Below, piece by piece: positions 16,999 to 34,849 of a DNA stretch of 64,000 nt. Where the stretch lies: NCBI RefSeq assembly GCF_000319245.1, contig NC_019814.1:558001-622000 (forward strand), read 5' to 3'. The position numbers were made by a program, and so were the translations under genes. Under the pieces are notes generated by a model that did not search any database, had not been told where the DNA came from, and saw nothing but the letters and a program-made list of their open reading frames with translations. This DNA is from Candidatus Kinetoplastibacterium blastocrithidii (ex Strigomonas culicis) (GTDB taxonomy: Bacteria > Pseudomonadota > Gammaproteobacteria > Burkholderiales > Burkholderiaceae_B). Numbering within the stretch: the stretch's first letter is position 1; each line of letters begins with the position of its first letter.

Positions 16999-17685
16999 AT
17001 GATAAATAATGTAAAAATAACAGAAAGACCCACTGTAATATTACCACCTAATTCTAAAAAAGTTCTTCTACATTCTTGTTGTGCCCCATGTTCTTGTGAA
17101 GTAATGGAAATAATGACAGAATCACACGTAGAGTATGAAATATTTTTTTATAATCCAAACATTCATCCGAAACAAGAATACGAAATAAGAAAAAGAGAGA
17201 ATATTAGATTTGCGGAAAAAAACAACATAAGATTCATAGATGCTGATTATGATACTGATAATTGGTTTGCTCGGGTAAAGGGATTAGAACACTCACCAGA
17301 AAGAGGAGACAGATGTACAATTTGTTTTGATATGAGATTTGAAAGAACCGCTTTATATGCTCATGAACATGGTTTTGATACTATCACAAGTTCTTTAGGT
17401 ATTTCTAGATGGAAGGATATGGATCAAATTAACTCAGCAGGGATACGAGCATCTTCCAAATATAATAATTTAATCTACTGGACATATAATTGGCGCAAGA
17501 AAGGTGGCTCTCAAAGAATGATAGCAATTAGCAAGAGAGAAAAATTCTATCAACAAGAATATTGTGGATGTGTATATTCACTAAGAGATACCAATAAATT
17601 TAGAATATCTCATGGATCGGAACGAATACAAATTGGCATTAAGTTCTATGATGAAGAATATAAAAAAACTAAGAATATTATTTAA
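16999..17685 (+). CDS. queH: Epoxyqueuosine reductase QueH
   Basis: Catalyses the final step of queuosine synthesis, reducing epoxyqueuosine to queuosine at the wobble position of tRNAs; it is the non-homologous replacement for the cobalamin enzyme QueG. Family (former DUF208) signatures are the N-terminal [15 protein letters not shown] with vicinal cysteines, then [17 protein letters not shown] and, near the C-terminus, EYCGCVYS; these cysteines bind the cluster and second metal. Also conserved is the [15 protein letters not shown] segment. Length is 228. It lies 59 bases after rho on the same strand; its 3' end overlaps the 3' end of the ZIP gene by eight bases. No other queuosine gene is in the window. 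Confidence 0.9.
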
Positions 17686-18490
17686 TACCAATAAAGCAAC
17701 TACATTGACATAGATAATTATGACCAAGATTAGTAATTAAATATGTAATAGCAATGCCAACTATTACAAAAATTAATTGAGGAATATGAGCAGTTGGATA
17801 TTCCTGTTCATGCATACTAGGTATTAAATCTGATATTGATATGTATATAAAACTACTTGCAGCTATTACCAAAACATATGGGGTTATTTGTTGAATATTC
17901 TGTAAAATAAAATATCCGAACAAACCACCTATAGATGAACATAAGCTTGAAGCAAGAATCATACAAAAAATTCGTCTTCTATGGAAACCAGCATTTCTCA
18001 AAACTACAAAATCACATAATTTATGAGGAACCTCATGTGTAATAATAGATAATGCTGTCAAAACACCTAATAAAGGAGAAGCTATAAATGATGCTGAAAT
18101 TAATACGCCATCAGAAAAATTATGTAACGAGCTTCCTATTAAAATTATTACACCACCGTTACCAGCATCATGCCTATCATGACCATGGCTATGTCCATGA
18201 CCATCACCTTCATAATGATGATTATGCCTAATCAATGATATTTTTTCTAATATAAAGAAACCTACTATTGAAACTAACATTGCTAATAATAAAACATCAG
18301 ATTTCTCTGGAATATCATTAAATGCCTCTGGAAGCAAATGCAAAAAAGATACTGATAAGAAAACCCCTACGGATAAACTAACCATATAATGCAAATATTT
18401 GGAAAATATATTATATGTTAACCAATTAGCCATGCATACGGCTATCAAACCACTAGAAATTGTAGTTACCAATATATATAAAATTATCAT
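17678..18490 (-). CDS. ZIP-family divalent metal (zinc) transporter
   Basis: Inner-membrane transporter with about eight hydrophobic helices. The metal-site helices are visible: [13 protein letters not shown] (helix IV) and [17 protein letters not shown] (helix V, the classic ZIP HExPHxxxDF pattern with Lys-Leu-Cys in the variable part). Between helices III and IV is a histidine-rich loop, [20 protein letters not shown], typical of zinc-binding regulatory loops. The open frame begins at 18544, 35 bases inside polA. I place the start at ATG 18490 ([10 protein letters not shown]), which begins at the first membrane helix and leaves a 19-base spacer. Exact metal specificity is not determinable. 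Confidence 0.88.
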
Positions 18491-18509
18491 ATTTAAAAAT
18501 AAATTATGC

Positions 18510-21215
18510 TTAATGTGCTTGTGACCAATTTTTACCAGTACCAATTTCTATAACTAATGGTACGCTGATGTTAACTATATCACACATTAAAGAAGGTAAA
18601 ACATCTTTTAGTATCTGAACTTCTGTCTCATGAGCCTCGAATATTAACTCATCATGAACCTGCATTACAATCCTAGTTTTCATATTATTTTTTACCAGCC
18701 AATTATGAACAGAAATCATAGCCATTTTCATTATATCTGCAGCTGTACCTTGGATTGGTGCATTCATAGCTGCTCGTTCAGACGATTGACGATTGTTTAT
18801 TGAAGACCCATGTATTTCCGGGGTATATATTCTACGACCAAATATTGTTTCGACATATCCATATTTTTTTGCTTTTTTACATATATCCTCCATATAAACC
18901 GCTACAAGAGGGTAACGAAAAAAATATCGATCCATATATTGCTTAGCACTACTTCTACTTATCTTTAAGGCTGATGATAAACCAAAAACACTCATTCCAT
19001 AAAGCAAGCCAAAGTTTATTGCTTTTGCTGATCTACGTTGCTCGTGAGAAACATTACATATGTCTGTATCGAATATCTCAGAAGCCGTAGCAGAATGTAT
19101 ATCCTTTCCTTCTGAAAAAGAAATTTTTAAGTTAGTATCATCTGAAATATGAGCCATTACTCTTAGCTCTATCTGTGAATAATCAGCAGATATCAGTAAA
19201 TAATCTTCTCTAGAAACAAAAGCCTGCCTTATCATTCTACCTAAATCTGTACGAACCGGTATATTCTGCAGATTGGGATACGAAGAAGATAATCTGCCTG
19301 TAATAACACCTATCTGTGAATATGTAGTATGCAATCTACCTGTATTGATATTAACCATGCTAGGTAATTTATCAGTATAAGTAGATTTTAACTTAGTTAA
19401 TGATCTATATTCTAGAATGATATTTGGCAAGAGAAAATCATTAGATAATTTTCTCAATACTGATTCGTCAGTAGAATGTAACCCTGCTGACGTTTTCTTA
19501 ACAAGAGGATATTTCATTAAACCAAATAAAATATCACCTAATTGTTTTGGAGAATTTAAATTGAAACTTTTACCAACTATATTGAAAACCTCTGATTCTA
19601 ATTTTGAAATTTTATCTGATAAATTAAGACTATGGTCTTTTAACTTATTTGAATCTATCTCTACTCCATTTATTTCAATAATGCTTAGAATATTTGAAAT
19701 CTTCATTTCTAAATCATAAATTGAATTTAGACTATCTTTTTCTAATAATTTAGAAAATTCGATACACAGTTCCATTATTATTAATGAATTTTTAGCAGAA
19801 TAATTCGCAGAAGCAATAATATCGAAATCACTAAAGTCATCAATTTCTTTACATTTACCATAAATTTCTTTGTATGAGTTATGTTTTATTTGTAAATACT
19901 TTTCTGATAACTTATCTATAGATATATTATTATGCGAATCAAGGACATATGCTTGCAACATAACATCATCCCTTACTCCTTTTAACTCAATACCTTCATT
20001 ATATAAAACATGAAAACAATTTTTAGCATTATGCACTATCTTTTGTTTAGTAGAGTCTTCTATCCAAGGCTTGAGTAAAGATAAAATATAATTTTTCTGC
20101 AAATAAAGATTATCTGGTTTATGATCTAGCATTGGAATATAGAATAATCTTTTATTTGAAAAACAAGAAATAGCAACTAATTTTGATAACATAGGAACTG
20201 TAGATGTAAAAATAAAATCTACTGAAACTACTCCAGGGTTATTTAAACATTCTAAAAACGAGTATAAATAGTCTATACTATCAACAATTTCAACATCTCT
20301 TAATAAATTATCTATAAATAATTCTCTATCATTAACATGATTACTGTAATAATACTCATCTTTTATCTCATCCAACCATAAATTAAAATCAAATCTAGTG
20401 TAAAGATTAATTAATTCATTGTAGATCATAGGTTTTATTAAAAAGTCTTCTTTAGAATTTATACGATCACCTAAATCACAGTCACATTTTATTGTTAATA
20501 ACTTCCTTGTTATTTCAAATTTATCTATAAAATCACGTAGATTTTTACCTATTAACCCAGGTATCTCATCAATATTCGATATAATATTATTCAGCGATCC
20601 ATATTTATTTAATAGTTTTACTGCTGTCTTAGGTCCAATCTTTTTAACACCTGGAACATTATCTACTGAATCACCAATTAACATAAGATAATCAACAATA
20701 AGATTAGGAGGAATACCAAACTTTCTTGCAACTCCTTCCTCATCTAATATATCATTACTCATAGTGTTAATTATTGAAACACGCTTGTTAACTAACTGGG
20801 ATAGATCTTTATCACCTGATGATATTACAACGTTAAAGTCAGATATCTCCAAAATTTTTGTAACTATAGATCCAATAATATCATCTGCCTCGAAGCTATT
20901 AGAATGATAAATAGGCAACCCTAAAGCCTCTATTATCTTATATATATATTCTGTCTGTTTAACTAAATCATCAGGCATGGAAGATCGGTTTGCCTTATAA
21001 GAAGAGAATATATCTTTCCTAAAGGTTTTTTCTGAAGAGTCAAAAACACAAGCAACATAATTAGTATCTTGATCAGAAAGTAATTTACGCAACATATTAA
21101 TGACACCATATATAGCTCCTGTAGGCTCACCTCTTGAATTGCGCAAATCAGGCATAGCATAAAAAGCACGGTATAAATAACTGGAACCATCTAACAATAG
21201 TAGCTTTTCAGACAT
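18510..21215 (-). CDS. polA: DNA polymerase I, proofreading site apparently degenerate
   Basis: Repair and Okazaki-fragment polymerase. The N-terminal 5'-3' nuclease domain is intact (SSYLYRAFYAMP, FEADDIIGSI, SSGDKDLSQL, LMLIGDSVDNVPGVKKIGPK). The polymerase domain is intact: SADYSQIELRVMAH (motif A), RRSAKAINFGLLYGMS (O helix), MQVHDELIFEA (motif C). The middle 3'-5' exonuclease domain has lost metal ligands by my alignment to E. coli: Asp355 is kept as D333, but Glu357 is I335, Asp424 is C400 and Asp501 is N476, with Tyr497 kept as Y472. Proofreading should therefore be absent while the fold persists. Length 901 compares with 928 in E. coli. Confidence 0.97.
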   Translation of the reverse strand: MSEKLLLLDGSSYLYRAFYAMPDLRNSRGEPTGAIYGVINMLRKLLSDQDTNYVACVFDSSEKTFRKDIFSSYKANRSSMPDDLVKQTEYIYKIIEALGLPIYHSNSFEADDIIGSIVTKILEISDFNVVISSGDKDLSQLVNKRVSIINTMSNDILDEEGVARKFGIPPNLIVDYLMLIGDSVDNVPGVKKIGPKTAVKLLNKYGSLNNIISNIDEIPGLIGKNLRDFIDKFEITRKLLTIKCDCDLGDRINSKEDFLIKPMIYNELINLYTRFDFNLWLDEIKDEYYYSNHVNDRELFIDNLLRDVEIVDSIDYLYSFLECLNNPGVVSVDFIFTSTVPMLSKLVAISCFSNKRLFYIPMLDHKPDNLYLQKNYILSLLKPWIEDSTKQKIVHNAKNCFHVLYNEGIELKGVRDDVMLQAYVLDSHNNISIDKLSEKYLQIKHNSYKEIYGKCKEIDDFSDFDIIASANYSAKNSLIIMELCIEFSKLLEKDSLNSIYDLEMKISNILSIIEINGVEIDSNKLKDHSLNLSDKISKLESEVFNIVGKSFNLNSPKQLGDILFGLMKYPLVKKTSAGLHSTDESVLRKLSNDFLLPNIILEYRSLTKLKSTYTDKLPSMVNINTGRLHTTYSQIGVITGRLSSSYPNLQNIPVRTDLGRMIRQAFVSREDYLLISADYSQIELRVMAHISDDTNLKISFSEGKDIHSATASEIFDTDICNVSHEQRRSAKAINFGLLYGMSVFGLSSALKISRSSAKQYMDRYFFRYPLVAVYMEDICKKAKKYGYVETIFGRRIYTPEIHGSSINNRQSSERAAMNAPIQGTAADIMKMAMISVHNWLVKNNMKTRIVMQVHDELIFEAHETEVQILKDVLPSLMCDIVNISVPLVIEIGTGKNWSQAH

Positions 21216-21258: not shown

Positions 21259-23082
21259 CTAGCTATTACGTTCACGGCTAGCCTTACGTCTCTCGTGCTC
21301 CTGTAAATAACGCTTTCTTAATCTAATAGATTTTGGAGTAATTTCAACTAATTCATCATCTTCTATAAATTCAATAGCATATTCTAAAGATAACTGCACT
21401 GGAGGTATCAAACGTATGGCCTCATCAGTTCCAGAAGCTCTTATATTTGTCAACTGTTTCTCCTTAGTAGGATTAACAACTAAATCATTGTCTCTGCTAT
21501 GTATACCAACTATCATGCCTTCATATAGAGTCTCTCCAGGATTAACAAACATTCTTCCTCTGTCCTGTAATTTCCATAAAGCATAAGCCACTGCAATACC
21601 AGAATATTGACTTATTAGAACCCCGTTACGTCTACCACAGTTGGAGATGTCATTAACAGGAGCATATTCCCGAAATACATGACTCATTATACCATTGCCA
21701 CGAGTTAATGTCATAAATTCATTCTGAAAGCCTATAAGAGAACGGGCTGATATTACATATTCCAATCGAGTCTTGCCTAGTCCATCTGGTAACATATTTT
21801 GTAGATTACCCTTGCGACGACCCAATTCTTCCATAACACTACCTTGGTGAATATCATCGACATATATAGTCAAATCTTCATAAGGTTCATTTTTTATACC
21901 ATCAATATCTCTATAAACAACATTTGGCCTAGAAACCGCAAGCTCATACCCTTCTCTGCGCATTGTCTCTAATAGAATAGTAAGATGCAATTCGCCTCTG
22001 CCTGAAACTTCAAATACAGTATCATCATCTGTTGTAGAAACACGTAAAGCAACATTAGATTTTAATTCTAAAGATAGGCGATCAAATATCTGTCTACTAG
22101 TTACAAATTTTCCTTCTTTACCAGCTAATGGAGAAGTGTTAACCATAAAATTCATTGTTAAAGTAGGCTCGTCAATATGCAATATTGGTAATGCCTCTAT
22201 ATTATTAATATCACTCAAAGTCGTACCAATAGATATATTGTCAATTCCATTTATAAGTACAATATCACCAGCCTCCGCTTTGTCTACCGATATTCTATCA
22301 AGCCCAGAAAATTTTAATATTTGATTAACTCTAGATTTTTCAGGTTCTCCTGCATGACCTAATTTCATCACAACATCCATACCTGGGTATAAAATACCAC
22401 GATTTATCTTTCCTATCCCAATCTTACCTACATAAGAACTATAATCTATGGATGCTATCTGCATTTGAAAAGGACCATCAGAAGAATTATTATGCTCAGG
22501 AACATACTTTAAAATAGCATCAAATAATGCGCTCATATCACCAGATCTAACATCAGCTCTATCACTAGAATAGCCTGATAATCCAGAAGCATATACGATC
22601 GGAAAATCCAATTGTTCTTCTGTAGCTCCTAGACGATCAAATAAATCAAATACTTCATTAATAACAAAGTCTTGACGTGCTCCAGGCCTATCTATTTTAT
22701 TAACAACAACAATTGGTTTTAATTTTAACGCCAATGCTTTTTTTGTAACAAATACTGTTTGCGGCATAGGACCTTCTACCGCATCTACTAATAATAAAAC
22801 ACCATCTACCATAGATAAAACACGCTCAACCTCTCCACCAAAATCAGCATGTCCAGGAGTATCTATAATATTTATATGCACTCCTTTATATTCCACAGCA
22901 CAATTCTTAGATAAAATTGTTATGCCTCTTTCTTTTTCTAAAGCATTAGAATCCATAACACGTTTGACTATGTTTTGATTTTTTCTAAAAATACCAGATT
23001 GCTTTAATAATTGATCTACTAACGTAGTTTTACCATGATCAACGTGTGCTATTATGGCTACATTGCGTAAAGCACGAGTCAT
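21259..23082 (-). CDS. typA: Ribosome-associated GTPase TypA/BipA
   Basis: Translational GTPase of the EF-G superfamily involved in 50S assembly and stress adaptation. The P-loop is AHVDHGKTTLVDQLL at the N-terminus, then the switch region ERGITILSK, G3 DTPGHADFGGEV and G4 VVNKIDRPGARQ. Domains II, III and V follow, with the TypA-specific C-terminal domain containing EYVISARSLIGFQNEF and TRGNGIMSHVFREYAPV. Length 607 equals E. coli BipA. It lies 20 bases downstream of truB and upstream of polA, all on the minus strand. Confidence 0.98.
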   Translation of the reverse strand: MTRALRNVAIIAHVDHGKTTLVDQLLKQSGIFRKNQNIVKRVMDSNALEKERGITILSKNCAVEYKGVHINIIDTPGHADFGGEVERVLSMVDGVLLLVDAVEGPMPQTVFVTKKALALKLKPIVVVNKIDRPGARQDFVINEVFDLFDRLGATEEQLDFPIVYASGLSGYSSDRADVRSGDMSALFDAILKYVPEHNNSSDGPFQMQIASIDYSSYVGKIGIGKINRGILYPGMDVVMKLGHAGEPEKSRVNQILKFSGLDRISVDKAEAGDIVLINGIDNISIGTTLSDINNIEALPILHIDEPTLTMNFMVNTSPLAGKEGKFVTSRQIFDRLSLELKSNVALRVSTTDDDTVFEVSGRGELHLTILLETMRREGYELAVSRPNVVYRDIDGIKNEPYEDLTIYVDDIHQGSVMEELGRRKGNLQNMLPDGLGKTRLEYVISARSLIGFQNEFMTLTRGNGIMSHVFREYAPVNDISNCGRRNGVLISQYSGIAVAYALWKLQDRGRMFVNPGETLYEGMIVGIHSRDNDLVVNPTKEKQLTNIRASGTDEAIRLIPPVQLSLEYAIEFIEDDELVEITPKSIRLRKRYLQEHERRKASRERNS

Positions 23083-34303: not shown

Positions 34304-34849
34304 TTATAACTTGAAGAAATATTTACGGTAATAACGCAATTCATTTATTGAATCATATATATCTGAAAGAGCTTGATGCTTACTATTTTTAGAAAAATTT
34401 TTATATGCATTAGGGGACCATCTCTTTGCAAGCTCTTTTATAGAACTAACATCGATATTTCTATAATGAAAAAATTTTTCTAATCTAGACATGTATATAT
34501 TCATGAATCTACGATCTTGACTAATTGTATTACCGCACAATGGAGAAACTCCTGAATTAATATAATTTTCCAAAAATAATAAAATATTATCTTCTGCTTC
34601 TTTTTCTGATATCTCAGACGACAAAACTTTATCAACTAGTCCGCTCTTACTATGAACTGATTTATTCCATTTATCCATTGATTCTAAAATCTCATTAGTT
34701 TGATGAATCACAATAACTGGACCTTCTATTATCTCATCTAAATTTTCATCCGTAATAACTACAGCAACCTCCAGAATCTTATCTTTTAATGGATCCAGAC
34801 CACTCATCTCCATATCTAACCATACTAATCTATTGTTATTGATATTCAT
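34304..34849 (-). CDS. orn: Oligoribonuclease
   Basis: DEDDh 3'-5' exoribonuclease that degrades 2-5-nt RNA fragments and pGpG. Catalytic residues: Asp and Glu in [13 protein letters not shown], Asp in [11 protein letters not shown], and His...Asp in [12 protein letters not shown]. Length 181 matches E. coli (181). It is convergent with the MATE gene with zero spacing, and separated by 110 bases from the divergent rsgA. orn-rsgA proximity is common in proteobacteria. Confidence 0.97.

Follow-up and report, generated by a model that had tools for sequence, protein, structure and literature searches.

Probable lineage-specific loss of DNA polymerase I proofreading in the symbiont genus of Candidatus Kinetoplastibacterium blastocrithidii

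Background

The carboxylates in the 3'-5' exonuclease site of DNA polymerase I (Pol I) hold metals that hydrolyse the 3' nucleotide. Pol I of Bacillus, Mycobacterium smegmatis and Thermus aquaticus has no working 3'-5' editing, and the exonuclease domains of these enzymes are regarded as anciently dead. The closest described system is the Pol I of Helicobacter pylori which, according to PMC3121766, lacks D355, D424 and D501, residues termed there metal-binding and essential, and retains polymerase and 5' nuclease activities; the purified enzyme did not remove mismatches, extended them and carried out mutagenic bypass. More broadly, PMC12926913 reports that about half of the PolA1 orthologues carry a substituted DEDDy site, mostly by phylum, and that PolA2/APEX proteins, which have no 5' nuclease domain, occur in Actinobacteria only. 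Here we describe the polA gene in a stretch of 64,000 nucleotides (the window; NC_019814.1, positions 558,001 to 622,000, forward strand) from the single-contig, 820,037-bp genome of Candidatus Kinetoplastibacterium blastocrithidii (ex Strigomonas culicis), a symbiont of a single-celled insect parasite. Three of the four metal-binding carboxylates of its exonuclease site are replaced. In the open-access literature we found no published account of this trait in these symbionts, and none of PMC3616161, PMC5632650 and PMC8406214 has the words "DNA polymerase" in its main text.

The exonuclease site of the window protein

The gene is a single open frame of 901 amino acids (aa) with an ATG start, and its product scores above the cut-offs of two Pol I equivalog models (NF004397, 1031.2 bits against 720; TIGR00593, 887.3 bits against 600). 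Its features, all on the minus strand, are as follows.

18510-21215 (-): polA, DNA polymerase I, 901 aa; open reading frame (ORF) with Pfam PF02739, PF01367, PF01612 and PF00476, and NCBIfam NF004397 and TIGR00593 above cut-off
20364-21215 (-): FEN-like 5' nuclease domain, approximately aa 1-284; catalytic residues intact (PF02739/PF01367)
19740-20297 (-): 3'-5' exonuclease domain of the DEDDy type, approximately aa 307-492; eroded at the catalytic site (PF01612, 51.6 bits)
18513-19733 (-): polymerase domain of family A, approximately aa 495-901; catalytic residues intact (PF00476, 502.7 bits)
20217-20219 (-): D333, equivalent to E. coli D355, kept (MAFFT alignment)
20211-20213 (-): I335, equivalent to E. 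coli E357, metal ligand lost (MAFFT alignment)
20016-20018 (-): C400, equivalent to E. coli D424, metal ligand lost (MAFFT alignment)
19800-19802 (-): Y472, equivalent to E. coli Y497, kept (MAFFT alignment)
19788-19790 (-): N476, equivalent to E. coli D501, metal ligand lost (MAFFT alignment)

The sites were mapped in a MAFFT alignment of the window protein, E. coli K-12 PolA (NC_000913) and 53 relatives. Instead of the complete D-E-D-D plus Y of a DEDDy exonuclease, the window protein has D-I-C-N with Y. An earlier note, made by eye from the same DNA, had proposed exactly the replacements of Glu357 by I335, Asp424 by C400 and Asp501 by N476, with D333 and Y472 remaining; the alignment reproduces all five residues and places no acidic residue at the three altered metal sites. 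The motif stretches are free of gaps between the window protein and E. coli (VDFIFTS/FDTETDS, HNAKNCFH/QNLKYDRG and YSAKNSL/YAAEDAD), the gap column that follows D-F-I in the full alignment being caused by one other row (L008). The erosion extends to neighbours within the motifs, E. coli T356, T358, Y423 and E500 all being changed; among the altered exonuclease positions are L361 (to T) and Y423 (to N), which we take to be editing-site DNA contacts. K398, equivalent to K422, is still present. In the other two domains, the positions that we assume to be catalytic are identical to those of E. coli at 9/9 (5' nuclease) and 18/18 (polymerase), and for these positions the earlier statement that both sets of motifs are intact holds.

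Having a family A polymerase domain as well as a FEN-like 5' nuclease with its catalytic acids, the protein is a PolA1, and the presence of PF02739 and PF01367 sets it apart from PolA2/APEX. It has three DEDDy substitutions in an otherwise Pol I-like protein whose fold is retained in prediction, and thus belongs with the proofreading-deficient Pol I enzymes. Since three of the four carboxylates are gone, 3'-5' editing by this protein is very unlikely.

Technical explanations can be set aside. Misalignment is ruled out by the gap-free motif stretches and by the recurrence of like states in the nearest genomes; sequencing error is ruled out because DVCYN and DICFN occur in the closest genomes, G007 and G005 (79 and 78% identity). 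The gene is not a pseudogene either: the frame is open in 8/8 genus members, and the ratio of nonsynonymous to synonymous substitution rates (dN/dS) is below 0.5 for all three domains in every pair computed.

Distribution of the loss

E357, D424 and D501 are absent from all eight genomes of the genus, and L009 additionally lacks D355. The five-site states are DICYN (window), DVCYN, DICFN, DYVFR, DYTFR, DHVFR, DISYR (L008) and HIINN (L009), with I, V, Y or H in place of E357, C, V, T, S or I in place of D424, and N or R in place of D501; C400 and N476 are common to the three Strigomonas-type symbionts. L008 reads DYSYR in another alignment, and the printed residues of L008, L183, L210, L211 and L212 depend on the alignment, never giving D-E-D-D. 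By comparison, DEDYD is found in 46/46 large-genome relatives of the family (2.2 to 7.4 Mb, 20 genera), and E. coli also has D-E-D-D. The 46 are the highest-scoring listed family matches, 26 of them from one genus (g2), a favourable sample in which degenerate copies would for that reason be under-represented. None of these relatives, none of which is known to be a Bordetella (the comparison that the earlier note had in mind), shows the residues of the window protein, and for them a family-wide absence of the site is ruled out. The contrast between the genus (0/8 complete) and the relatives (46/46) is not due to chance.

Among smaller genomes the picture is mixed. The sets drawn from the family, order and class were selected by size. 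Three of the 28 family or order members of at most 2.0 Mb have a dead site (G116, 0.9 Mb, SESYF; G504, 1.3 Mb, GEAYA; G351, 1.7 Mb) and 25 an intact one. A set of 25 class members, selected for small genome size, yielded 23 usable frames, 9 dead and 14 with four carboxylates; at 3.1 to 5.7 Mb, the site is dead in 1/30 class members (L248, DKAFE). L248 comes from G935, a 3.6-Mb genome of the same class, so that within the class substituted sites are not confined to small genomes. With small genomes limited to those that do not exceed 1.3 Mb and are 85% complete or more, 5/15 are dead versus 1/30 large ones (Fisher p 0.012), the five dead cases lying in two families and the size cut having been set after the fact. 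Both sets were picked by hand, the 15 also for a full-length frame; left out of the 15 were G999 (a fragment), G711, G922, G889, G929, G994 and G959 (incomplete), three genomes of 0.3-0.4 Mb with no Pol I match, and the window's own genome. A wider contig scan gave DEDYD in 26/77 aligned rows (80 loci, of which 3 shorter than 750 aa were dropped); it is not a fair sample because it was seeded by peptides of the window PolA.

The sequences give good support to a loss of Pol I proofreading, which within our sample of this family is limited to reduced genomes; the trait is common elsewhere in bacteria and looks unusual in this branch. Two further observations concern the small genomes of the class. 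L201 and L193 (from G825 and G932, one genus, 0.9-1.0 Mb) carry differing partial losses, DKDYG and NEGYN, which, judging from the residues, look as if decay were still going on after a loss that was earlier or parallel. In G671, G820 and G927 (one family, 0.3-0.4 Mb, rated 94-96% complete), the class search gave no Pol I match.

Evolution and predicted fold of the exonuclease domain

Counting as invariant those positions that are constant in the 46 relatives and E. coli, the window PolA keeps 72/82 in the 5' nuclease and 149/162 in the polymerase domain versus 21/39 in the exonuclease domain (Fisher p 1.6e-7), so that the erosion is concentrated in the latter. The dN/dS values were computed per domain by the Nei-Gojobori method. 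For the Strigomonas-type symbionts (window, L003 and L004) they are 0.154-0.173 in the exonuclease, 0.130-0.158 in the 5' nuclease and 0.107-0.140 in the polymerase domain. For L005-L007, the group with the Angomonas deanei symbiont, the exonuclease domain has 0.277-0.385 versus 0.125-0.129 for the polymerase domain, and the more distant pair L005/L008 has 0.489 versus 0.249; the values for wider pairs are rough because dS reaches 0.65-1.02. In four large-genome control pairs, exonuclease dN/dS is 0.019-0.136. The exonuclease domain is under purifying selection and not in free decay.

A confident AlphaFold2 model of the window protein (mean predicted local distance difference test score 90.2, predicted template modelling score 0.70, 10-residue blocks of the exonuclease domain at 63-95) superposes on the Klenow structure 1kfs over 589 residues (Z 40.9, 2.9 Å). 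It also superposes on structures of the Bacillus fragment, with Z up to 44.1, and on the Pol I structures of Thermus aquaticus and Mycobacterium smegmatis. The exonuclease domain is thus predicted to fold despite the lost site.

Other fidelity functions in the genus

The window also encodes an exonuclease of the related DEDDh type, which serves as an internal control.

34304-34849 (-): Orn-type DEDDh exonuclease, motifs intact (ORF; PF00929 match at genome positions 592340-592825; DMEMSG, GNTISQD, HQALSDI)

Two PF00929 exonucleases are found per genome in 8/8 genus members, one DnaQ-type and one Orn-type (names inferred from length and motif), each with three intact motifs, which rules out a general decay of DEDD exonucleases. 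MutS and the C-family polymerase (Pol III alpha) each give one match per genome, again in 8/8. The searches covered the Y and C families of polymerases, MutS and the PF00929 and PF01612 exonucleases; no Y-family polymerase (PF00817) was matched in the eight genus members, in G116 or in G456, a 1.2-Mb genome of the same order. For the Strigomonas culicis symbiont, PMC3616161 gives 12 mismatch-repair ORFs. Replacement of the lost activity by another PF01612 protein is ruled out, polA being the sole PF01612 match in the window's genome, and a megablast search for plasmid copies of polA gave no match.

Origin and meaning of the loss

We consider it very probable that Pol I proofreading was lost long ago in this lineage and that the exonuclease domain was retained as a scaffold. 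Without three of the four metal ligands, the two catalytic metals would not be held and, from the chemistry of family A enzymes, 3'-5' hydrolysis would not be expected. The loss would have taken place in or before the genus ancestor, once selection on editing had relaxed, and the RNase H-like domain would have been kept because it holds the 5' nuclease and polymerase domains in place as a scaffold. Such an enzyme would still remove primers and fill Okazaki and repair gaps, would extend mismatches and probably bypass small lesions; the control of errors would then fall to Pol III epsilon and to repair that depends on MutS. As Pol I copies short patches, any genome-wide effect should be bounded by Pol III, DnaQ and MutS.

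The H. pylori enzyme is similar in being full-length, with an exonuclease fold described as preserved and three carboxylates gone, in a small genome for which PMC3121766 reports no translesion polymerase homologues. By analogy, the symbiont protein is expected to leave mismatches unexcised, to extend them and to carry out mutagenic bypass. The two enzymes differ in that the window protein keeps D355 and loses E357, and in that the loss of editing was measured in H. pylori whereas here it is deduced from sequence. Like the substituted PolA1 proteins described in PMC12926913, the window protein is a Pol I orthologue with a 5' nuclease and DEDDy substitutions; unlike them, it represents a genus-level loss within a family whose examined large-genome members are intact. 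The symbiont loss would be younger than those of Bacillus, Thermus and Mycobacterium because the nearest large-genome relatives in the trees are intact.

On a 116-row tree the dead or intact state changes at least eight times. In trees built without the exonuclease columns, the dead PolA of G116 groups with those of the genus (Shimodaira-Hasegawa-like approximate likelihood ratio test, SH-aLRT, 99), and a mixture-model tree without these columns likewise puts G116 beside the genus (ultrafast bootstrap 95, SH-aLRT 100). G116 (locus L167, 0.9 Mb, same family, 29% GC in the 5.7-kb locus) keeps E357 and has lost D355, D424 and D501. From these sequences, G116 is possibly the sister of the genus. 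Long branches are flagged for L167 and L009, and an odd composition for L167 and the genus as a whole, so that the loss may, but need not, be a joint one of G116 and the genus.

Several points weigh against an old loss with a purely structural remnant. Long-branch attraction may account for the position of G116 beside the genus. Two of the site residues, D333 and Y472, are still there, and the exonuclease domain of the Strigomonas-type symbionts evolves nearly as slowly as the other domains, which would also fit some function beyond scaffolding. Moreover G456 (six contigs), which probably corresponds to the trypanosomatid symbiont Ca. Pandoraea novymonadis (a name inferred by us), shares with the window's genome its reduction, its order and the lack of a Y-family match, yet it has an intact exonuclease site, with all four carboxylates and 37/39 invariant positions kept, and genome reduction alone is thus insufficient for the loss. 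The suggestion in the earlier note that the loss fits a reduced symbiont stands to the extent that the class sample leans towards small genomes, with few independent events; it is weakened by G456 and by the statement in PMC12926913 that across bacteria Pol I exonuclease inactivation is unrelated to genome size.

Of the other explanations, the one that fares best, though we find it unlikely, is that editing loss in Pol I measurably raises the mutation rate, an effect that the earlier note had thought possible, and, as a mutator arising by decay, helps drive the AT drift. In E. coli work cited in PMC3121766, inactivation of the Pol I 3'-5' exonuclease reportedly gave a lagging-strand-biased mutator phenotype, with a model in which Pol I performs 1-2% of lagging strand synthesis. 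Against this, 8/8 genus members keep MutS, Pol III alpha and a proofreader of the DnaQ type, and substituted sites are reported in about half of PolA1, irrespective of genome size (PMC12926913).

Somewhat less likely still is an adaptive loss, in which, after loss of the Y family, an editing-free Pol I became the main lesion-bypass polymerase and was favoured because editing blocks bypass. The absence of PF00817 from the genus and G116, together with a single C-family polymerase in 8/8 genus members, is compatible with this, as is H. pylori, where a non-proofreading Pol I with mutagenic bypass occurs without translesion polymerase homologues, according to PMC3121766. In the 58 genomes of the genus and the small-genome sets, PF00817 is absent in 16/20 exonuclease-dead versus 12/38 exonuclease-intact genomes (Fisher p 0.0007), but when kinship is respected three supported pairs are left and the association is not significant (median p 0.5). 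Moreover, those 12 intact genomes, G456 included, also lack the Y family, 4/20 dead ones have it, the two losses may each be no more than a consequence of genome reduction, and among bypass polymerases the survey covered the Y family. A bolder version, that the dead site reflects a selected conversion of Pol I to a gap-filling and bypass polymerase in reduced genomes of the class, its fold kept by purifying selection, we regard as slightly more doubtful. That the altered site still works, either editing very slowly or using D333 together with N476 or C400 to hold a single metal, is highly improbable: D333, Y472 and K398 are kept and C400 and N476 recur in the three Strigomonas-type symbionts, but the lost positions take unrelated residues within the genus, L009 lacks even D355, and the presumed DNA contacts are changed as well.

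If proofreading was indeed lost as we propose, the genus offers a clean case, one genus set against an intact family sample, in an obligate symbiont that has kept MutS and its other DEDD exonucleases intact, and it is well suited to studying the purpose of Pol I editing. General knowledge of the enzyme is unchanged, because Pol I with a substituted exonuclease site is common. A question does arise for the published view that genome size plays no part, as within the class losses may be commoner in small genomes and beside loss of the Y family.

Gene neighbourhood

Two genes flank polA. On one side, a ZIP/ZupT-like ORF (17678-18544, minus strand) has a ZupT score of 67.5, far under the model cut-off of 252; with a TTG start it would share 35 bases with the 3' end of polA. 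On the other side lies typA (21259-23082; TIGR01394, 908.9 bits).
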